NCBI GenBank assembly: GCA_018817165.1
Contig: JAHITY010000017.1
Location: 1 to 32,894, forward strand
Source: Candidatus Omnitrophota bacterium
Lineage (GTDB): Bacteria > Omnitrophota > Gorgyraeia > B26-G9
Length of the DNA stretch: 32,894 nucleotides
Reading direction: 5' to 3'
Part shown: positions 536 through 28,345 of the stretch, in pieces
How the letters are laid out: every line of letters begins with the position of its first letter
Numbering within the stretch: position 1 is the first letter of the stretch
Made by a program: the position numbers and the translations under genes
Notes under the pieces: generated by a model
What the model saw: only the letters and a program-made list of their open reading frames with translations
What the model was told of the DNA's origin: nothing
The model's database searches: none

Positions 536-554
536 TTTGGCTCCTATTGTCATT

Positions 555-581
555 ATAATAACCCCCTTTAAGAGTTATTAT
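555..581. other. Inverted repeat (8-bp perfect arms) upstream of the transposase gene
   Basis: ATAATAAC (555-562) / GTTATTAT (574-581) with an 11-nt loop. Confidence 0.5.
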
Positions 582-584
582 TTG

Positions 585-674
585 GGTAACATTATTTATG
601 AGTCAACGAATACCTTAAAAATATTCTTTGGTAACATTTTATGTGAGTCAATTCGGATCAAAAATATTTTTTGC
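585..674. repeat. Two tandem imperfect ~45-bp repeats, probable IS terminal repeats
   Basis: GGTAACATTATTTATGAGTCAA at 585-606 and GGTAACATTTTATGTGAGTCAA at 630-651, each followed by an AAAAATATT(C/T)TTT tract; adjacent to the transposase start. Confidence 0.7.
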
Positions 675-725
675 AAATATAACACTCTTGTGATAGACTT
701 TAATGTTTTGCAAATCGGAGGAAAT

Positions 726-3700
726 GTGTTTATAAAACCTTATATTAAGAATTTGATTTTTTTTATCCTTATTCAAGCCTTGCTACTATCAAATATTACC
801 TTGGTATTGGCAGAACTGACTGAGACCAGAATCTCTTGTGCGACTATTTCTCCATCATTGACCATGGAGCAACAAGCGCTGCAAGATATTTTCTATCAAC
901 AAATACGGGAACAGCTCTTTTTTGCTGAAAAACCTCAACAGCCGCATAAAATTTCTCGTTTAAAGAATTTATCTCAAATGATCATAGATGCCTTTAAATC
1001 GCCCGAATCATTCAAAATGAATCGACGTAGCTTCCTTATGATAAGCGGGGTACTTACTCTGGGCTTAATGAATCTTTCTTTACCATCCATGGTGCAAGCT
1101 ACATCACACGAGGAAAATATTCTCTTAACACTGCCGACACTGGGGAGAAACCCTGGCGAAACATACTTGGAAAAAATTGCTCAACTTTTAATATCCAAAG
1201 AAATCGACCAGCAAAAAACAACAGCAATGCTCTGGAAGGTAATCAACACCACCCCTCTCATTTGGGCAAAAAAAGCTGCAATAAAAACCCTGTTTACCGC
1301 AGGATTACTCACGGAAAAAGACATTGAGAAAATTATCCAAAACATTCCGGAAACAGAAGTTTTATGCTCCTTAGCGGAAACTGTATACTTTGAAAACCCA
1401 GCCAGAAACCTAAATGATCTCTGGGCGTGGTATGAAAAAGAGGGAGACCCGCAATTAAAACAGCACTTGCTGGAATTACTAATAAAACAAAGATACCCTA
1501 AAGCCATATCCATACTCATTGACCAGCATAAAAAAGAAACGGATGTTGAAAAAATCAGAGACTTGACTCAGCATTTGGGTCTTGCTGCTCGGAACAATCC
1601 AATTGCCTTAAAATATTTAATCAATCATATCAATTCTCTGCAAAAACCAGAAGTCGCGCAAAAATCGATCGTTCAGCTTGTAGAAGATATTGCCGCTTTA
1701 GGCCAAACGCAAACTCCTGAAGCCGGAAAAATCCTGGTATCTCTTGCTGAAAAACATCGCCCTAAGGAATATCTTGAAGAAGGCAGTTCTATCTATCCAC
1801 AAATCATAGAAGCTCTTGGCAATGTCGCGCAATACGATAAAAGCTCCTTTAATTATCTTAAACAGATATTTTTTTCAAAAGATATTACTTATATAAGAAA
1901 AATATCGCAGGCCATTGGGATAGCCGCTCGGAAAAACCCAGAAGCATGGAAATTTTTAAAAACAAACTTTACCACTGTATGCCAAAACAACGGAGCTGAT
2001 TGCGCATATCTTATTTTGAGCTTAGGAGAAGCAGCACGAGAAAACCCTGAAGCGGCACAAATACTTTACTCCCTAACGGATGACGCAATGAATATTCCTC
2101 AAAAAAAATGGATGGTCATTTATGCGCTTCAAGCGCTTGCTCTATCCGAGACACCGGAGGCAATTAGCAAATTGGCGAGTTTTGGATCAAGTCTTTTTGA
2201 TGTATTAACAATTGACATGTTAACAAATTCTGTGATCCCGGCATTGGCAAAATCGAATGATCCTGTCGTAGCAGAACTGCTTTATTCTCAAAGTGTTAAA
2301 TATTTACAGTCTAGCTTTCAAGACGCAGAAATCGGCCTGCAAATATTTAAAGCATTGGGAGCCACCGGATCTCCTGAGGCAATTGATTCCTGCTTGAGCC
2401 TGATAAAAAGCATTGTTCCCGCGCATCGCCGGCTTGGATTAGAAGGACTAGTTAGTTCCGGCAGCATCAAAGCTTTGAATCTCTGCGTCGATCTTAGTGT
2501 TCACAAAAACGATATGTTTGACAGTGAAGAGCTGGCGTCCAATATTATTGCCCTGTCTGGATTTAGTGGATTTGAGCTTGTCAGAGAAAAACTTATCACC
2601 TTACTGGATCCTGACAAAGATTTTATAACCGAAACTATTGCAGCAATGGTTAAAAAAACGTTTAATGAAAAAATGGAATTAATTGAAGATAATTCAAATG
2701 ATAAAGACCATAATACCGACAAAATGATGCAATGTTTTTTTAATCGATTTAGTGAAATGCCTTTTGCGCTTTATGCCACCATCGCGAACAGCCAGAAGCT
2801 TACCAGTCATAGCTTTCCGCCGCTTTACACGATCTTTGAGAGAAATCTTCGCGCGCAATACGGCAGTGTCGATACTTTGCGCTATATAAAAGAGAAAACA
2901 GGTGGAATTTTCGTTGCGGAATTTATATATACAATCACAATATTCGGGTTTTTAAAACAATGCTTGCAGCAATATGCCGATCAAGGGGCCACGTTAACGG
3001 ACTTCTTATTGGAAGATAAACATATCGAAATTTTTATGAAGTATCCCTCTCTTTTCGCGAAAGTTGCCAGTGAAATACTCAACTGGAACAAAAAAGAATT
3101 AAACAACAGCTTCATTGAAAGACTCCTAGAGCTTGCGACACACGGCGATAAACGTTTTCAAATTCTTTTGTCGTTGTTTAACCAATATAATATTATCCAT
3201 GATGACCGCATCAATATTTTCCAAGAAGCGCTGCCGAATATTAATCCTTCCTGGATGGGGCCTCAGAAAAATTGGATAAACAATAACAACGAAATAGAAT
3301 TCGGCGTTTACTGGTCCACCATCAAAAAAACAGAAAAAGGACATTTTGAAAGATTCCCTGAAATATTCATGAATGGAGAGCGAGTCTCTGCATATTATAA
3401 AGATTTTAAAGGATATAAAGAAGCCCCCGCCGGCTCCCGTGAAGATACGCGAAGGATTGCCTTGGGTGCAATCAAGGTTTTTTACAAATCTTTCCCGGAA
3501 ACCGGAAGGAAAGTCGTTTTCTACCTCTATGACAATCTTGACAACATACGTGAAAGTGAACATGCCATTGTCGTCAGCCGGGGGCATGATAAAGAGAAAA
3601 ACGTGAAAATGAATTGTAGGGCTACCGGACGACTTCTCATTACCAGTCATTGCCGATCGAGAGGAGACATGGATGAAGCAATCTGGCAGAATCCGGAAAA

Positions 3701-4070
3701 CGCGGTAATTTCAACAATCGGAACAACGCGTGCTCTCGCTACCAATCCCTTACTCTACTGGGCAGCGGAATATCTGGGCAGAACAAAAGAATACGGAACC
3801 TATCAAGATCTTTATGGATATATTCAACCGCATATTCCCCTCACAATACAGCAATACGATATCCCCATGGTAAATAATGATATCAGCGCGGTTTATGCCG
3901 TCGTATTACGAAAGCTGTATCTCAATATAGAGTTGCCCACAAAAAAAAATATTAACCATGGGACACATATTACCCCTCACTCTCCAAACACGCAAAACTC
4001 TCGATCTGGACATAAGCATATAAATATTCTCTGCGCCGGGGTTAAGTCTGTAATTACATCATTAATATAA
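726..4070 (+). CDS. Large exported HEAT/ARM-like alpha-helical repeat protein with an internal Tat-like signal (MNRRSFLMISG) and a C-terminal domain bearing RGH and SHCRS motifs (candidate caspase-like fold)
   Basis: Track ORF is 537..4070, but the first ~63 codons overlap the IS end. GTG at 726 follows GGAGG and gives VFIKPYIKNLIFFILIQALLLSNITLVLAE, a signal-peptide-like start. Repeating helical units such as AIGIAARKNPEAWKFLK and LGEAARENPEAAQIL. Confidence 0.75.
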   Translation: MFIKPYIKNLIFFILIQALLLSNITLVLAELTETRISCATISPSLTMEQQALQDIFYQQIREQLFFAEKPQQPHKISRLKNLSQMIIDAFKSPESFKMNRRSFLMISGVLTLGLMNLSLPSMVQATSHEENILLTLPTLGRNPGETYLEKIAQLLISKEIDQQKTTAMLWKVINTTPLIWAKKAAIKTLFTAGLLTEKDIEKIIQNIPETEVLCSLAETVYFENPARNLNDLWAWYEKEGDPQLKQHLLELLIKQRYPKAISILIDQHKKETDVEKIRDLTQHLGLAARNNPIALKYLINHINSLQKPEVAQKSIVQLVEDIAALGQTQTPEAGKILVSLAEKHRPKEYLEEGSSIYPQIIEALGNVAQYDKSSFNYLKQIFFSKDITYIRKISQAIGIAARKNPEAWKFLKTNFTTVCQNNGADCAYLILSLGEAARENPEAAQILYSLTDDAMNIPQKKWMVIYALQALALSETPEAISKLASFGSSLFDVLTIDMLTNSVIPALAKSNDPVVAELLYSQSVKYLQSSFQDAEIGLQIFKALGATGSPEAIDSCLSLIKSIVPAHRRLGLEGLVSSGSIKALNLCVDLSVHKNDMFDSEELASNIIALSGFSGFELVREKLITLLDPDKDFITETIAAMVKKTFNEKMELIEDNSNDKDHNTDKMMQCFFNRFSEMPFALYATIANSQKLTSHSFPPLYTIFERNLRAQYGSVDTLRYIKEKTGGIFVAEFIYTITIFGFLKQCLQQYADQGATLTDFLLEDKHIEIFMKYPSLFAKVASEILNWNKKELNNSFIERLLELATHGDKRFQILLSLFNQYNIIHDDRINIFQEALPNINPSWMGPQKNWINNNNEIEFGVYWSTIKKTEKGHFERFPEIFMNGERVSAYYKDFKGYKEAPAGSREDTRRIALGAIKVFYKSFPETGRKVVFYLYDNLDNIRESEHAIVVSRGHDKEKNVKMNCRATGRLLITSHCRSRGDMDEAIWQNPENAVISTIGTTRALATNPLLYWAAEYLGRTKEYGTYQDLYGYIQPHIPLTIQQYDIPMVNNDISAVYAVVLRKLYLNIELPTKKNINHGTHITPHSPNTQNSRSGHKHINILCAGVKSVITSLI

Positions 4071-6930: not shown

Positions 6931-8937
6931 CTATTTTATCGGCAATTCTTTTCGGGCAGACCATTCGGTCCATCCGCCGTCATACCAATAAACATTCGTG
7001 TATCCAAGTAAATTCTTTAATATAAAAAATGTCTGGCTTGCCTGATGACCTGTGCGGCAATGTACAATAATTTTAGAAGCATTTGTCGGAATAATTGATT
7101 TATAAGCTGTCGTGAGTTCATCAACGGTTTTAAATAAAGAATATTTGTCTGCTTTGCGGATATCTTCCGTATAAGGCCTATTGATTGCCCCAGGAATATG
7201 CCCTGCGCGAGCTTCGTCGGATTTTTGACCAAGATAATAATCCTGCGGACGGACATCTAAAATAATCGCGTCTTTATCCTTAATTGCCTGCAAAACAGTT
7301 TTATAATAAACAGTGAAATTATCCGCATAATTTAATCGATAGCTTGAATCAATGACTTTGGGTAATTCCGTATCCACCAGACGTCCTTCACTTTGCCACT
7401 TTAAAAATCCCCCATTTAATATCCCGTAATTTTCATGCCCCAGTCTTTCAAATACCATACTAACAAGCGTCGCATCATGCGGCTTTTCACCATAAACCAA
7501 TACCACAAAATCATTTGGTTTTATTCCCATCAAAGAAATAGTTTGCGATAAAATAGCAGCCGGCAGAAGCACAGAAGGAACGCCCTTTACTACTCCGCGA
7601 AAACTCTCGGGTGAAATCGCCAGAGATCCCGGAATGTGCGAAGTATTATATTCATTCTGACTCCGTAAATCCAATATTTTCATATCAGGTTTTTTATAGT
7701 TTTCTGAAAGCCACTGAGTATCGATAAGCCCGGGAGCTTTATGCGCGAAGTTTCTAACTTCTTCCACCCCTTTTTGCCCTTTAGCTTGTCCTAAGAAATA
7801 ACCTCTCCATAAATTTATTTTTTGAGCAAGTCCATCCGGCACTGGCTCTGAACGTAAAGCAACAGGCTTTAGACAAAGATCAACAAATCCCAATAATCCA
7901 TCGGTCAATATATAAACATTATTAAATCCTTGTCTGTTTAAGGAGTCTCTTGCCTGAGCCGGGTGGGTCATTCCATTAGAATATAAAACAATTATCCCTT
8001 GGTTTTTATAGCCAATTAACTGCTCAGATAAATCCGATAAGCGAATATTAACCGCTCCTTTTATATGAAAATTTGCATATTCATTTTCCGGTCTTACATC
8101 AACTAATAGGACTTCTTGATTATTATTTAATAATCGCTCCGCTAATTCTTCAGCGGCGATATGATCTTGCGCTTCTTCTACCTTTTGTAATAAAGCCTGT
8201 TCTGAAAATAAACAAGCAGTCTGGGTGTTTTTAAAAAAAGGATAAACCAAAGCTTTTCTTGTAGTTTGACCGTAAATAAGCATCAATCCCAAAGCCGCAC
8301 TAAACAAGACAAATGAAAATATTTTTAAAAATTGACTGCCTAAGTATTCGCTTTTTCCAGTTACTTTCTGTTCTATTTTTTCCACACCCCAAAAAGCAGC
8401 AATTCCTATTATTGTAAAAAGAAAAGCTGTTACTCCTTTTGAAAGATGCAAAGAATCAGATAAAAATAAAATGCCCTGGTTTCCGTTAGTATATAAAGGC
8501 TGGATAAAATGAAAAGTTTCATTAAATAATATACTGCCTAAAATCGCGCCCAAAATACAAATAAGCGCATCCCATTTGCCGGAAGCAAGTCCCACAGCTG
8601 CTGTTCCGGGACACCAGCCGCTCATAACAAAGCCTATGCCAAACAATAATCCTCCAATAATTTGAGCGCCATAAATTGTCGGCATTAAATACACGCTCTC
8701 CACGCTGATAAGCCCTAAAGCCTGCGCGTACAGCAAACCGAGCATGGCTGTGATCAGGGCAGTGAACATAACCTTTAAAACCGCCATATCTTTAAAATAA
8801 AATATCCCGGACAATCTTCGTGAACTCCCAAAGCCAGCCTTTTCTAAGGCAACTCCAAACAATATCCCCAGAACAAGCGAAATTAAAAGTGCTAAAGATG
8901 TATCTAAAATGTTGAGGCTATATAGTGTATCAATCAT
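6931..8937 (-). CDS. YeeE/YedE-type sulfur transporter domain fused to three rhodanese domains
   Basis: N-terminal TM region with FVMSGWCPGTAAVGLASG; three rhodanese-like segments (LLVDVRPENEYANFHIKGAVNI; ILDLRSQNEYNTSHIPGSLAI; ILDVRPQDYY...AGHIPGAINRP), only the last with an active-site loop Cys (VHCRTGHQAS). Confidence 0.88.
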   Translation of the reverse strand: MIDTLYSLNILDTSLALLISLVLGILFGVALEKAGFGSSRRLSGIFYFKDMAVLKVMFTALITAMLGLLYAQALGLISVESVYLMPTIYGAQIIGGLLFGIGFVMSGWCPGTAAVGLASGKWDALICILGAILGSILFNETFHFIQPLYTNGNQGILFLSDSLHLSKGVTAFLFTIIGIAAFWGVEKIEQKVTGKSEYLGSQFLKIFSFVLFSAALGLMLIYGQTTRKALVYPFFKNTQTACLFSEQALLQKVEEAQDHIAAEELAERLLNNNQEVLLVDVRPENEYANFHIKGAVNIRLSDLSEQLIGYKNQGIIVLYSNGMTHPAQARDSLNRQGFNNVYILTDGLLGFVDLCLKPVALRSEPVPDGLAQKINLWRGYFLGQAKGQKGVEEVRNFAHKAPGLIDTQWLSENYKKPDMKILDLRSQNEYNTSHIPGSLAISPESFRGVVKGVPSVLLPAAILSQTISLMGIKPNDFVVLVYGEKPHDATLVSMVFERLGHENYGILNGGFLKWQSEGRLVDTELPKVIDSSYRLNYADNFTVYYKTVLQAIKDKDAIILDVRPQDYYLGQKSDEARAGHIPGAINRPYTEDIRKADKYSLFKTVDELTTAYKSIIPTNASKIIVHCRTGHQASQTFFILKNLLGYTNVYWYDGGWTEWSARKELPIK

Positions 8938-9442
8938 TCCATTGCCTCCTTACAAAATAGGCGGCTAAATAACCGCCCGCGAATAAACAGATTAAGAAAA
9001 CAAGGCTTCCGGTAAGTAATAATGCCCCTCCGGTTAAGGCTTGTCCCGAGGTGCAGCCCTGTGCCAATCGGCTGGCATAACCAATAATGATTCCGCCGAT
9101 CAAGGCAAAGCTTATTCTTAATAACCGAGAAGCCGCTTTGCCCTTCTCAAGCTGAAAAGAGATTCTTTTTGCCGCTAAAGCGGAAAATAAGCCTCCCAAA
9201 ACAGTCCCGACAAACATAAAAACCAAATAATAATTAAGCGGTGTCTCTCCCCATTTCCCGAAATATTCAGAAGATAAGGTATGCGTCTTAGCGATACTTA
9301 ATTCTAATGCTGCTGCAATCCTTGCCAAGCCGGATGATGCGCCTAAGCCCGCGCCAAGCACAAGAAATGAAGCTAAAAGAACTGATCCCAGGAAGACCCC
9401 GGCCAGATATGGATTCATATATGGTTTTGGACTATTCTCCAT
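8930..9442 (-). CDS. YeeE/YedE family protein (second half-transporter)
   Basis: MENSPKPYMNPYLAGVFLGSVLL...SRLAQGCTSGQALTGGALLL; ATG at 9442 preferred over the track start; overlaps the downstream gene by 8 nt. Confidence 0.85.
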   Translation of the reverse strand: MENSPKPYMNPYLAGVFLGSVLLASFLVLGAGLGASSGLARIAAALELSIAKTHTLSSEYFGKWGETPLNYYLVFMFVGTVLGGLFSALAAKRISFQLEKGKAASRLLRISFALIGGIIIGYASRLAQGCTSGQALTGGALLLTGSLVFLICLFAGGYLAAYFVRRQWND

Positions 9443-9443
9443 C

Positions 9444-11483
9444 TTAGCACCCCGCACTTTTCTTTTGCGCTTTTTGCGGTGCTTGGATTTCAGGCTGCGG
9501 CTGAAGCGCGGGGATTACAGTCTGACTTGCCGGAATTTGCATTTTTTTAGAGGAACCCAAAGGCATAGACATGGCCGGTATTTTTGTATCCAGCAAATCT
9601 TTAAGCTCTGATTCAGCCCAGTAGGCTTCAAGACCTCCGCGCAGTGCTTTAATCGGTCTTTGCGTTTTTTGAAATAGCATTCCGGCAATAATCATCGAAA
9701 GCGAACCATCGCGATCAATAATAATTAACGGCCCGGTTCCGACCAGATACGCCGGACTGTTCATTAAATCCACAATGTCCGCGTTAACTGAACCAGGCAG
9801 ATGATAGTCAGCGAATTGTTCCGCTGGTCTAATATCAACCAAATCAAAGGTGCCGGGTAAATCCATAATTAGACTTTTCAGTTCCACACAAGATATTCTG
9901 CCCGGCAGCTTAATTTCTCTTTTAGGTATTGAAACCGCGGCAGTTTTCGCGGATTGTTCAGTCTGCGCGCCAAAAACCGGAAGTCCGGCATTGATCCAGG
10001 CTTCACTTCCTCCGGCTAAACTACTTACTTTTGTAAATTCCTTACGCTCTAAAATACCGATCGCCATGCTTGAGCGATAGGCGGAGTTGCATACGGCAAC
10101 AACCGGCTGCTTTGGATCAAGTTTTGAACAAAGATTTTCCAATTGATTTAAGGCCAAATTAATAACTTTTCCTATCCTTAATCCCATCCATTCACTAGGC
10201 AATCTGACATCTACTATGATCGGAGCCTCTCCTTTTTCCATAAGCGCGTACAAATCTTTTGGCTCAACCATATTGTTTTTTGTCATCGCCATACCGGAAC
10301 TTTTCCAGGTGTCAAAGTTAATTACCTTGGCTTTATATCCCACACGATGCAGCCGATACACAGCTTCTTTTAACTCTTCATCATTTCCGGTTAGGACTAA
10401 TTTTGAATCCCACGGGACCATAATTCCCGTCCAAGTCTCTATGCGACCCCGCAAACCAATATTAACTGAATTCGGGATGTGGTTTTGAGCAAACTCATTC
10501 GCGCTTCGAATATCCACTAGATAATAATATTTTGAATCAGTTAACAGTTTATCAGCCTTCACCTTATCCAGCGGTTCATCCCAATTAATCAATTCCGGCC
10601 CATTTTTATTCATCGCCGCATTATATTTAAAATACTGCGGAGCCTCCGGCAGTCCTTCAAGAACTGCTGCTATAAATTCATTGCGGTTCTTGATCTGCAG
10701 ATAAACATTTGTTTTTCTTTCTCTGCCAATAGTAGAATATGGGTCATCGCTTAGATGCGCTCCGCACAAAGATCCCGCGCCATGAGCCGGAAAAACAACC
10801 ACACTATCATCAATAATCGATAATTTTTTTGTCCAGGTATCAAAAGACATTGAAGCAAGTTCCGCGGCAGAAATTGTCCCGCCCATCAAATCAGGCCGGC
10901 CAATACTGCCCACGAAAAGCGTATCTCCTGAAAACGCGACCTTAGGTATATTTTTATCATCAGAGCTATAGACAAGTGAAGTTGTACAATCAAGTGTATG
11001 TCCGGGAGTCTCAAGAACTTTAATCGTCACATTGCCTAATGAAATAATCGAACCGTCTCTGGTCGGTGTATGCGCATACCCCGCATTCGCTTTTTCGCTA
11101 ATATAGATAGGCGCTTTGGTTCGTTTTGCTAATTCATTGTGACCGGCGACAAAATCAGCATGACTGTGGCTGAGGAGGATTCCTTTTATTTCCACATTTT
11201 CTTGTTTAGCAACATCAATGTATTTAAAAACATCTCTTCCGGGATCAACAACAATAGCTTGATTGCCACTGATAAGCATATAGGAATAATGCGAAAGCAC
11301 TGCTAGATTAAACTGAATGATTTTAAACCCCGGGTACTGATAAGTATCCACAATATCGTAAATCGCGGCTGTATCAGCATGGGATGCTGATTCTGTATCT
11401 TTGAGTTTAGCGGAATAACATAAACTGGTATTTAAGCTTAAAATAATCAAAGCCAAACTGAAAAGCAATATTCTTTTAAACAT
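9444..11483 (-). CDS. Exported MBL-fold hydrolase (persulfide dioxygenase/glyoxalase II-like) with three C-terminal rhodanese-like domains
   Basis: Signal peptide MFKRILLFSLALIILSLNTSLCYSA; MBL motif LLSHSHADFVAGHNELAKRTKAP, PGHTLDCT, FSGDTLFVGSIGRPDL; rhodanese segments VDIRSANEFAQNHIPNSVNI, VDVRLPSEWMGLRIG...VCNSAYRSSMA, VDIRPAEQFADYHLPGSVN; C-terminus KSAGC. Confidence 0.88.
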   Translation of the reverse strand: MFKRILLFSLALIILSLNTSLCYSAKLKDTESASHADTAAIYDIVDTYQYPGFKIIQFNLAVLSHYSYMLISGNQAIVVDPGRDVFKYIDVAKQENVEIKGILLSHSHADFVAGHNELAKRTKAPIYISEKANAGYAHTPTRDGSIISLGNVTIKVLETPGHTLDCTTSLVYSSDDKNIPKVAFSGDTLFVGSIGRPDLMGGTISAAELASMSFDTWTKKLSIIDDSVVVFPAHGAGSLCGAHLSDDPYSTIGRERKTNVYLQIKNRNEFIAAVLEGLPEAPQYFKYNAAMNKNGPELINWDEPLDKVKADKLLTDSKYYYLVDIRSANEFAQNHIPNSVNIGLRGRIETWTGIMVPWDSKLVLTGNDEELKEAVYRLHRVGYKAKVINFDTWKSSGMAMTKNNMVEPKDLYALMEKGEAPIIVDVRLPSEWMGLRIGKVINLALNQLENLCSKLDPKQPVVAVCNSAYRSSMAIGILERKEFTKVSSLAGGSEAWINAGLPVFGAQTEQSAKTAAVSIPKREIKLPGRISCVELKSLIMDLPGTFDLVDIRPAEQFADYHLPGSVNADIVDLMNSPAYLVGTGPLIIIDRDGSLSMIIAGMLFQKTQRPIKALRGGLEAYWAESELKDLLDTKIPAMSMPLGSSKKMQIPASQTVIPALQPQPEIQAPQKAQKKSAGC

Positions 11484-23924: not shown

Positions 23925-25514
23925 ATGCTCGAAGAATTAGTAAAAACAATGCAGGAAAAAAAAGCGACCAGCATGCATATGAGTGCTGGACTTCCGGCTT
24001 TGTTTAATATTGCAGGCAGATTGATCCCGGGAAATTCGCAAAAAATTGACGCGCGGCAAATTGATCATTTGGCTGATTCTTTAATGAATTCTGCTCAAGC
24101 AAAAGTATTTGCCCAGGATAATTCTGTAAATTTTACTTATGTTCTGGATTCATTGGGCAGGATCAGGGTTAGTTTTTACAAACAAAAAGGTTTTACCAAT
24201 GCTTTATTCCGCACGCTTTCCGAAAATACGCCCACAATCCCGGAGCTGAATCTTCCGGAGAATATTAATAAACTATCTGAATTAAAAAAAGGGCTGGTTA
24301 TCCTTGGCGGCCCTGCCGGCTGCGGCAAAACCAGCACTTTGTCTGCGATTCTTGATGCTTTAAATAAAAAACGCGGCTGTCATATCATTACTTTGGAAAA
24401 TCCGATTGAATATTTCTTCCAACCGATTAAATCATTATTTTCTCAAAGAGAAGTCGGCACTGATTGTATTAGCTTCCCCTGCGCTCTCCGCGAAGCGATT
24501 CGTCAGGACGCGGATGTTATCGTAATCAATGAAATGCGCGATATGGAAACAATTCGCATTGCCCTGGAAGCCGCAGAAACCGGAATCTTGGTTTTTGCCA
24601 CCATGTCTACCACGGACTGTATTCAAACAATTACCCGCTTAGTCGGGGCGTTTCCCGCTAATGCTCAGCACCAGATCAGAACCCAGCTTGCTATCTCGCT
24701 ACAGTCGATAGTTTGCCAGCAACTAGTCATGCGCCATGATAATAGCGGACGGGTTCCGGCTTTGGAAATTATGCATTCAAACCAAGCTATTCAGAATTTA
24801 ATTCGGGAAAAAAAATATCATCAGATTTATTCAGCAATTGAAAGCGGTAAAGAGCAAGGCATGCAGACTTTGGACCAGGCCTTACAAAAACTTTACCAGA
24901 AAAATATAATCTCTGATTTAGAAGTTGTTACTAAATCAGTTAAACCCGAACAATCACATAATAAACTGATCCGCAATGATATTCCCTCTCCTGAAGAAAT
25001 TGCCAGTTTAAATTTTATTGATTTGGGAGAAGAAATGATTCCCCTGGAAAATAAAATGATCAAATATCGTTCAAACTTTACGCCGGGACAGGAAAGCTAC
25101 TGGACTTCTTCTGCTAGCGTAGTCTTTCAAGACCCGGGAATGATTTTAACCAAACTTGCTAGTTCAGGTGCCAATAGATTTTATATTTCGGATTTTAATA
25201 TTGTCAGTAAAAAAGTTTCTCCTTTTGAACTGCCGCACAGATTGCTGCTTAGATTTAAAATTGAATACGATCCGAAAAATATTCCGGACATTGAGAATCA
25301 TCTGGTTTTAAAACTATTTACTTTACCGGAAAAAGATAAACCAACTAGTTTTGTAAAAACAAATTCCAATTATCCTATGGAGTTAAATGATCGCTGGCAT
25401 ACATGTGTAATAAATATTCCACCGGAAGCTGTAGGTAAATTACTGAAAATAGTAATGTTCGAATTCCCCGAATTCTTGACAAAGGTATTGATAAGCGATA
25501 TTATATTTTTCTAA
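23925..25514 (+). CDS. Divergent PilT-family ATPase paralog with a C-terminal beta-rich extension
   Basis: Walker A GGPAGCGKTST, ITLENPIEYF, VIVINEMRDMETIRIALEAAETG, ATMSTTD; aligns collinearly with the downstream PilT but His-box His is Ser; ~180 extra C-terminal residues. Confidence 0.88.
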   Translation: MLEELVKTMQEKKATSMHMSAGLPALFNIAGRLIPGNSQKIDARQIDHLADSLMNSAQAKVFAQDNSVNFTYVLDSLGRIRVSFYKQKGFTNALFRTLSENTPTIPELNLPENINKLSELKKGLVILGGPAGCGKTSTLSAILDALNKKRGCHIITLENPIEYFFQPIKSLFSQREVGTDCISFPCALREAIRQDADVIVINEMRDMETIRIALEAAETGILVFATMSTTDCIQTITRLVGAFPANAQHQIRTQLAISLQSIVCQQLVMRHDNSGRVPALEIMHSNQAIQNLIREKKYHQIYSAIESGKEQGMQTLDQALQKLYQKNIISDLEVVTKSVKPEQSHNKLIRNDIPSPEEIASLNFIDLGEEMIPLENKMIKYRSNFTPGQESYWTSSASVVFQDPGMILTKLASSGANRFYISDFNIVSKKVSPFELPHRLLLRFKIEYDPKNIPDIENHLVLKLFTLPEKDKPTSFVKTNSNYPMELNDRWHTCVINIPPEAVGKLLKIVMFEFPEFLTKVLISDIIFF

Positions 25515-25526
25515 GGAGATGCTTAT

Positions 25527-26597
25527 ATGACAATTTTTGATTTGATTGACGAAGTAACCGAAAAACATGCTTCAGATTTACATTTAGTTGCCGGAGCTCC
25601 GCCTGCCATGCGGATTAATGGTGAATTGTATTTTTCTGATAAAGAAAAACTTACTCCTGATGAAGTCAAACGTCTTTCTTACGCGATTTTAAATGAGCCG
25701 CGTAAAGAAAAATTTGAAAAAGAAAATGAACTGGATTTCTCCTATTCTTATTTAAATGAAAAACGCGATCTGTTCTGTCGGTTCAGAGTCAATCTTTATA
25801 TTCAGCGCAACAGTGTTGCCTTAGCCCTAAGATTCATTCCCAATCAGATTTTAAGTTTTTCCGATTTAGGTTTGCCTCCGATTTTAAAAGATATTGCCCG
25901 CAGACGCCGCGGCCTTATTCTGATTACCGGAGCAACCGGATCAGGTAAATCAACAACTTTGGCGGCAATTGTCGATTTGATAAATGCGGAACGCAGCTGT
26001 CATATTATTACTTTAGAAGATCCCATTGAATATTTTCATACCCATAAAAAATCATTGGTCTCCCAGAGGGAAATCGGTCAGGATACGGCCTCTTTTGCTT
26101 TTGCCTTAAGAGAAGCTTTGCGGCAGGATCCGGATGTGATCCTAGTAGGAGAAATGCGCGATTTGGAGACAATAAGTATTGCGATCACTGCTGCGGAAAC
26201 CGGACATCTAGTTTTAGCTACTCTACATACCACTGATGCTGTGCAAACCATTGATCGAATTATTGATGTATTTCCCCCGCATCAACAACAACAAGTTCGA
26301 ACCCAAATTTCAATTACTTTACAAGCAGTTGTTTCTCAGCAATTAATCGTTACAGCTGACGAGCAAAGCCGCGTACCGGTGGTTGAAATCATGGTGGTTA
26401 ACTCGGCAATCAGAAACCTGATCCGGGAAGGTAAAACATATCAAATTTATTCAGTTATTGAAACATGTCGGGAACAAGGCATGCAGACTCTTGATCAGGC
26501 TTTGCAGGAACTGCTCAACCGCAAATTAATCGGAACTAGTGAAGCCATGCAGGTTACTCGCGATCCGGATAATCTTAAAAAGAAATTGGCAGGCTAA
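25527..26597 (+). CDS. pilT: Type IV pilus retraction ATPase PilT
   Basis: GATGSGKSTTLAAIVDLIN, IITLEDPIEYFH, DPDVILVGEMRDLETISIAITAAETGHLVLATLHTTDAVQTIDRIIDVFPPHQQQQVR; RBS aaggag upstream. Confidence 0.95.
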   Translation: MTIFDLIDEVTEKHASDLHLVAGAPPAMRINGELYFSDKEKLTPDEVKRLSYAILNEPRKEKFEKENELDFSYSYLNEKRDLFCRFRVNLYIQRNSVALALRFIPNQILSFSDLGLPPILKDIARRRRGLILITGATGSGKSTTLAAIVDLINAERSCHIITLEDPIEYFHTHKKSLVSQREIGQDTASFAFALREALRQDPDVILVGEMRDLETISIAITAAETGHLVLATLHTTDAVQTIDRIIDVFPPHQQQQVRTQISITLQAVVSQQLIVTADEQSRVPVVEIMVVNSAIRNLIREGKTYQIYSVIETCREQGMQTLDQALQELLNRKLIGTSEAMQVTRDPDNLKKKLAG

Positions 26598-26767: not shown

Positions 26768-28345
26768 TTACTGCAATTCTTTTTCACTAAACACTTCCGC
26801 GGAAAAAATAAATATTTCCGCTCCTTTTTTCCAGTCATCCTTGCTTAACCCTGCTTTTACACAAGTTTCAGCCAAAAACTCTTCTTTACTCCAATTATAC
26901 TCTGCGGCTACTTGCGGCAATAATAATCCTGAATTATATCCTTTGCTAACGATCAATCCATGCTTTCCCACTTGAATCAGGTTTATATCAGTGATTCGCT
27001 CAATCGGACTGATTACTGAAATTTCCAGTTCAATATTATCCAGTTCATCTTCACTCACAGGCGCAAACCGAGGATCGCGAGTTGCGGCTTGTACAGCCAT
27101 ATCATTTACCACCTTAACCAATGGCTGGTCTGATTTAATCATCCCAATACAGCCGCGCAAAGCATTATTTTTATAAATCGTAACAAATGCGCCTTTATCT
27201 TGCATCAGTTCCGGATCATCAGAACTAACAATTTGTTTTCGATTACTTTTAACAATATTAACTATTGATTCACGAGCAACACTGATCAATTCTTTTTTTT
27301 GATTGCTGTTTAGCATTAAGCCACTCCTTTGGTTTGAGTTTATTGCTAATTTCTTCGGGTTGGTAAAAATAACCGCGGCATAGCCCACAACACTGGTTTT
27401 ATCCAGACTGGGCATATAAGCTGAATCAGCAGATGTCGCGTATTTAAGCAACTGAGCATTATTTGCTTTTAGATTTATCATTACTTGGAGTAATGTAGCT
27501 ACCGCTGCTGAGCCGCAAAGTTCGCTTTTACCCTCAGACACAAAATCAAATAATTGTTTAGGCTGTAACTTTAAAATATATTCTAATGTCTGCTGATCAA
27601 TTTTATTCGCGGTAGCCAGATCATGATAATGCGATAAGTCTGTGCTGGCAATTATCAGCACATCGTCTCTATCTGCGGTTAACGCGCTTAAAGCTTGCGC
27701 TAATGATTGAGTAAATTCATATGATAATGCCGGAATAAGAATCGGAACTATTTTAAAATCATCCTGGGTTTTTTGTAAAAAAGGCAGCTGGACCTCAATC
27801 GCATGTTCTTTTTCAAAAACACTGGGATTATAAGTAAATAGTTTAGTCTCATTTTTAATTAATTGCTGCGCAAATCCCTGATCAATGCTTACCAGGCCTA
27901 AAGGAGTTTGAAAAGACCCTTGGCTGTATATCGCCGCACAATCAAGCTTAAAGTAATGTGATGGCGCGAGAATTACTATGGTCTTATATTGGTTCGGGGT
28001 AATCGCCTGATAGTTTTTGGCCGCGACTTGTCCGGAATATATATATCCGGCATGCGGACTGATAAGCCCATAGACATGATGTTTAATTATGGGTTTTTCC
28101 TCAGAATTAAGTAAAAAGTCCAGGATATTATTTAACTCAACGCGATCCTTTGGATAAAATCCTCCCGCTACATTCGGGCTCTTTATATTGACTTGATTGT
28201 TCCCAGACTGCTTGGTGTTTGTTTTGTCTATAGCCCAGCAAGGTATCGCGCCAATCAGCAAATAATTTAACACCAATCCGGTGGTAATTCCCCTTTTCAG
28301 CCATATCCATGCCTGAGAATTAAAAATCGCAAGTTTAAAACTCAT
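26768..28345 (-). CDS. AmmeMemoRadiSam system protein B (Memo-like) fused to AMMECR1 (system protein A), with N-terminal signal/TM segment
   Basis: Memo: VAGGFYPKD, GLISPHAGYIYSGQVAAKNY, LAPSHYFKL, ASTDLSHYHD; AMMECR1: GAFVTIYKNNALRGCIGMI, AAEYNWSKEEFLAETCVKAGL; N-terminus IWLKRGITTGLVLNYLLIGAIPCWA. Confidence 0.9.
   Translation of the reverse strand: MSFKLAIFNSQAWIWLKRGITTGLVLNYLLIGAIPCWAIDKTNTKQSGNNQVNIKSPNVAGGFYPKDRVELNNILDFLLNSEEKPIIKHHVYGLISPHAGYIYSGQVAAKNYQAITPNQYKTIVILAPSHYFKLDCAAIYSQGSFQTPLGLVSIDQGFAQQLIKNETKLFTYNPSVFEKEHAIEVQLPFLQKTQDDFKIVPILIPALSYEFTQSLAQALSALTADRDDVLIIASTDLSHYHDLATANKIDQQTLEYILKLQPKQLFDFVSEGKSELCGSAAVATLLQVMINLKANNAQLLKYATSADSAYMPSLDKTSVVGYAAVIFTNPKKLAINSNQRSGLMLNSNQKKELISVARESIVNIVKSNRKQIVSSDDPELMQDKGAFVTIYKNNALRGCIGMIKSDQPLVKVVNDMAVQAATRDPRFAPVSEDELDNIELEISVISPIERITDINLIQVGKHGLIVSKGYNSGLLLPQVAAEYNWSKEEFLAETCVKAGLSKDDWKKGAEIFIFSAEVFSEKELQ

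Follow-up and report, generated by a model that had tools for sequence, protein, structure and literature searches.

A protein of Candidatus Omnitrophota with a HEAT-like scaffold and a probable clan-CD-like cysteine peptidase domain

A gene of a Candidatus Omnitrophota bacterium (positions 726 to 4070, + strand) encodes a protein of 1114 amino acids, probably a cysteine peptidase that is secreted or located in the cell envelope, belongs to an unnamed clan-CD-like family and has a HEAT-like scaffold. The window, to which all positions refer, is the whole stretch of 32,894 nucleotides that was analysed (contig JAHITY010000017.1). The C-terminal domain (3219 to 3968, +; residues 832-1081 of 1114), delimited by alignments A2, A4 and A10 and by AlphaFold2, is best read from its sequence as founding a new and unnamed family. 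Its candidate catalytic residues are His954 (3585 to 3587, +) and Cys976 (3651 to 3653, +), both invariant in 18 homologs; in profile alignments, the histidine pairs with the catalytic His of CHAT and C25, and the cysteine with the catalytic Cys of CHAT, C25 and C14.

In the proposed mechanism, His954, behind one core strand, would activate Cys976, behind the next strand, and the activated cysteine would attack a peptide bond nucleophilically, in the manner of caspases, gingipains and CHAT proteases. The HEAT-like scaffold may position the substrate or control access to the active site, a part proposed for the helical N-terminus of separase. This peptidase activity and this role of the scaffold are predictions from the protein sequence. 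The most plausible substrate is an envelope protein or a polyprotein, because the protein carries export signals and the same module occurs inside giant open frames of Omnitrophota.

Gene start, putative export segments and helical scaffold

The open frame extends from 537 to 4070 (+) and contains the peptides quoted in the original prediction, which had placed the gene, the codons of both candidate catalytic residues and the distance of 22 residues between the His of RGH and the Cys of SHCRS exactly. Residues are numbered from the GTG at 726, a start supported by the Shine-Dalgarno-like GGAGGA upstream of it (717 to 722, +) and by an N-terminal hydrophobic segment that lies at the same place in relatives. 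This segment (756 to 806, +), located by a hydropathy scan and found at the same position in relatives L036 and L037, is a predicted signal peptide or membrane anchor. The source genome has a single copy of the gene.

A twin-arginine-like segment, MNRRSFLMISGVLTLGLMNLSLPSMVQA (1017 to 1103, +), follows, with an RR-x-F motif common to relatives (SRRKFI in L036, SRRDFL in L037, ERRDFL in L039). Tat signals are normally N-terminal, and an internal RR-x-F placement is unusual. Judged against an N-terminal S-R-R-x-F-L-K, the window protein and its relatives have RRSFL and a hydrophobic stretch placed internally rather than at the N-terminus, and the Pfam TAT_signal model gave a sub-threshold match in L039 only. 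The segment lies about 490-860 residues before the helical-plus-protease module in the window protein, L036, L037, L039, L074 and L081. In L039 and L074, the frame is long and runs for hundreds to thousands of residues before the RR-x-F motif and hydrophobic stretch are reached. From these segments, the 1114-residue protein is predicted to be exported to the cell envelope or secreted. Another motif, GGI[DE][FLM], recurs towards the C-terminus in L038, L039, L074, L078, L079 and L082, followed near the end by GL/GF-x-PVI in L038, L039 and L078; GGI[DE][FLM] might serve as a tag for protein sorting in Omnitrophota.

The helical, HEAT-like scaffold (1107 to 3218, +) had been described as about 800 residues of HEAT/ARM-like repeats, which profiles support in part. 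The scaffolds of relatives are well above the Pfam HEAT_2 cut-off (E of 2e-14 and 3e-10 in L036/L037, and of 2e-12 in L038), whereas the window protein has a single HEAT_2 match (2328 to 2495, +) just under the gathering score (26.6 bits versus a cut-off of 27.7). The final 160 residues or so ahead of the C-terminal domain are conserved and helical, and are not recognised as HEAT.

Relatives of the C-terminal domain and conservation of Arg, His and Cys

Nothing usable was found for the C-terminal domain in Pfam, NCBIfam, PHROGs, PADLOC or PDB sequences, and neither the viral contigs scanned nor the plasmids searched with the window domain yielded a relative. A role in defence was rejected, as PADLOC gave only sub-significant HEAT matches and the export segments speak against it. 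The first distant relative, located in a 5205-residue open frame, was found among related genomes, of which most belong to the same class, and the four closest relatives, from a scan of GTDB genomes, all belong to Candidatus Omnitrophota MAGs. A two-member profile found about ten further relatives in 386 Omnitrophota genomes; a nine-member profile had matches at E up to 0.01 in 18 of the 386, some of them permuted forms or chance matches. By these profile searches, relatives are present in about 4% of the sampled Omnitrophota genomes. A divergent branch (L029, L062, L063) with the pattern RGHSY[YH] ... G[SA]CGG leads to hypothetical proteins on Azospirillum plasmids (E of 5e-40). L013-L017, L033 and L035 match only weakly, apparently by chance, and were set aside. 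The gene neighbours of L036, L037 and L038 were compared and are not conserved, so that nothing about function can be read from the genomic context.

In an alignment of 18 members (A10; 14-41% identity to the window protein, 210 columns scored for information), the only invariant columns are Arg952 (3579 to 3581, +) of the R-G-H motif, His954 and Cys976, and the two with the highest information are the Cys and the His; thus, the motif is more than a chance occurrence. The original prediction had staked itself beforehand on conservation of the two residues in homologs, and on this point it survived. All strong-scoring profile matches, in Omnitrophota and in Azospirillum, retain both. Some relatives were chosen by the motif while their loci were being read, but these had been found by profile beforehand, so this choice does not create the conservation.

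The family motif is R-[GS]-H ... C-[RGN]-[SG], and the residue preceding the Cys is variable (H, A, S, E or G), being Ala in some members only. Elsewhere in the family, the Cys stands behind a hydrophobic strand in the contexts LSAC, VSSC and GSCGG, which match the usual setting of clan CD cysteines. The spacing of His and Cys is 22-31 residues across all 18 members, compared with 43 in the CHAT proteins of Omnitrophota. The shortness of the interval in the window protein, which had been a concern at the outset, is therefore a stable trait of the whole family rather than the sign of a chance motif.

Comparison with clan CD and with alternative folds

The catalytic dyad of clan CD lies at the C-terminal ends of successive, adjacent parallel strands (PMC4357240). 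A conserved His-then-Cys dyad, a feature of that clan, is present in the 18 homologs; as for its His-Gly ... Ala-Cys blocks, His-Gly is absent from them, R-[GS]-H taking its place. Pfam gave no match to CHAT (PF12770) in any member and none to peptidase C14 (PF00656) or C25 (PF01364), and separase (PF03568) was not matched at E up to 5.

CHAT, C25 and C14 profiles were built from Omnitrophota genomes and compared with A10 by hhalign. The best local alignment with CHAT places His on His and Cys on Cys with a score of 24. In two separate runs, 0 of 400 and 1 of 300 shuffles scored this high, a significance somewhat overstated since shuffling erases homology and with it the pattern of local strands; no shuffle of 300 paired both catalytic residues at that score. 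True clan CD pairs, compared by the same method, scored 37 (CHAT-C14), 49 (CHAT-C25) and 21 (C14-C25), and the A10-CHAT score is thus within the range of remote clan members. With C25, both His and Cys pair, at a score no better than that of shuffles; with C14, the Cys alone pairs, at a marginal score that 17 of 300 shuffles reach. A GTPase profile used as a control scored 14.6, near the shuffles. The absolute hhalign probability of the A10-CHAT match is only about 4%.

Two AlphaFold2 models, of the window domain (pLDDT 65.6, pTM 0.72) and of relative L036 (pLDDT 71.1, pTM 0.78), each made from five sequences, are alpha/beta sandwiches in which one strand stops immediately ahead of the His and another immediately ahead of the Cys. 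Confidence is low in the catalytic half (pLDDT about 44-67). The core of caspases and haemoglobinases has strands in the order 2-1-3-4 with helices 1-3, and alpha3 lies between the His and Cys strands. AlphaFold2 predicts no helix between these strands in the present domain, and this absence and that of His-Gly are real differences from clan CD. Foldseek ranks Ras-like GTPases first in PDB and BFVD (TM at most about 0.45, rmsd mostly 6-20 Å), and no clan CD or caspase structure is among the top 50 matches in these databases. Of the original proposal of a clan CD protease, the conserved His and Cys have stood and gained the support of the CHAT profile; as to the fold, the modelled sandwich is compatible with clan CD, which it does not demonstrate, and caspases are missing from the Foldseek matches.

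The prominence of other alpha/beta sandwiches in Foldseek, the missing counterpart of alpha3 and the low absolute hhalign probability would all agree with a different, Rossmann-like fold that acquired a clan-CD-like motif by convergence, in a His/Cys hydrolase, acyltransferase or transpeptidase. This explanation is unlikely: the profiles of CHAT and C25 each pair with the family at both catalytic positions, and in the models His and Cys stand directly behind successive core strands, an arrangement known from clan CD (PMC4357240). It is quite improbable that the domain serves binding rather than catalysis, with His, Cys and Arg as structural residues or metal ligands; invariance extends to just three residues, and the catalytic role of the dyad is itself deduced from sequence, but its confinement to a dyad behind successive strands is typical of catalysis, and other conserved Cys or His ligands were not found. 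A relationship to Ras-like GTPases, with which the models share a similar strand order and a beta hairpin besides the top Foldseek ranks, is very improbable, since the P-loop G-x4-GK[ST] occurs in none of the 18 members, the structural superpositions are poor, the profile score is near that of shuffles, and no function in GTPases is served by the invariant Arg, His and Cys. The reading as a Cys-dependent phosphatase or rhodanese, with SHCRSRGD of the window protein (HC, then Arg residues) as its HC-x5-R loop, is scarcely credible and was rejected on the conservation pattern, C-x5-R being found in 0 of 18 members and the residue ahead of the Cys being variable.

Among known systems, the clan-CD-like peptidase proposed here is closest to CHAT proteins, with His and then Cys behind core strands, the best profile match and both catalytic columns paired. 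Helical repeats are frequent partners of CHAT domains within one protein. CHAT proteins are cytosolic, whereas the window protein is predicted from its sequence to be exported, lacks His-Gly and has the shorter spacing of the dyad. Gingipains (C25), like the window protein as predicted, are exported bacterial peptidases, of clan CD, and share its His/Cys register in the profile alignment, but they differ in domain layout and in a profile score not above shuffles. C25 was found in 13 of the 78 relatives searched, and the source genome itself carries a gingipain-like C25 gene (G000:C123:38834-40042, L052; E of 3.5e-51) in an 862-residue frame.

Separase (C50) has a long helical N-terminus, thought to consist of ARM, HEAT or TPR repeats, and a C-terminal caspase-like domain (PMC4626109). 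The window protein would have a comparable layout, with a HEAT-like N-terminus present and the caspase-like C-terminus predicted from motif and profile. Separase is eukaryotic and intracellular, and PF03568 is not matched by the window protein; the resemblance is likely one of architecture only, and convergent. YabG (MEROPS U57, proposed clan CD) is a His-Cys peptidase without sequence similarity to other clan CD families and also lacks the canonical His-Gly (PMC12445089), which indicates that this block is not universal in clan CD. YabG, compared by description only, differs in being a spore protein with a His-Cys spacing of 46.

Giant frames, apparently permuted forms and other genes of the window

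Several relatives of the C-terminal domain lie inside large frames of 1,800-5,800 amino acids. Such frames are a recognised and poorly understood feature of Omnitrophota (PMC10066038), and the giant proteins have few annotated domains and poorly understood processing (PMC10066038, PMC11573180). Three relatives (L030, L031, L034) have TRHHS at the place of RGH, and the Cys strand after it is missing; they have a conserved VDGGCGGINRIP 108-115 residues after the His. Their sequences apparently represent a strand-relocated (permuted) form, in which the Cys strand now comes after the C-terminal part.

These observations allow, rather than show, a role in the processing of giant polyproteins. In the most far-reaching form of this idea, cysteine protease modules throughout the phylum would free themselves and their neighbours from giant polyproteins, and would exist in two forms, one with a relocated Cys strand. 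Even where it lies far within a giant frame, the module is accompanied by a twin-arginine-like segment, which would fit such release, but the proposal as a whole is rather improbable. The putative catalytic dyad in some giant proteins offers a testable handle on possible cleavage of themselves or of other proteins. Should the predicted fold be confirmed, clan CD gains a form with short spacing and without His-Gly and, apparently, a strand-relocated form, both of which would be useful for understanding the evolution of caspase-like enzymes.

Elsewhere in the window, two adjoining rhodanese fusion genes are found at 6931 to 11483 (-), one encoding a sulphur-transport domain and the other a metallo-beta-lactamase, each fused to three rhodanese domains; they look like genes of persulfide or sulfur handling. 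Two adjacent PilT-like ATPases are encoded at 23925 to 26597 (+), of which the first (529 amino acids) has an altered Walker A motif (GPAGCGKTS) and is extended at its C-terminus by about 200 amino acids that have no Pfam match. A gene at 26768 to 28345 (-) combines Memo and AMMECR1 domains in one protein, with a possible signal peptide ahead of them.
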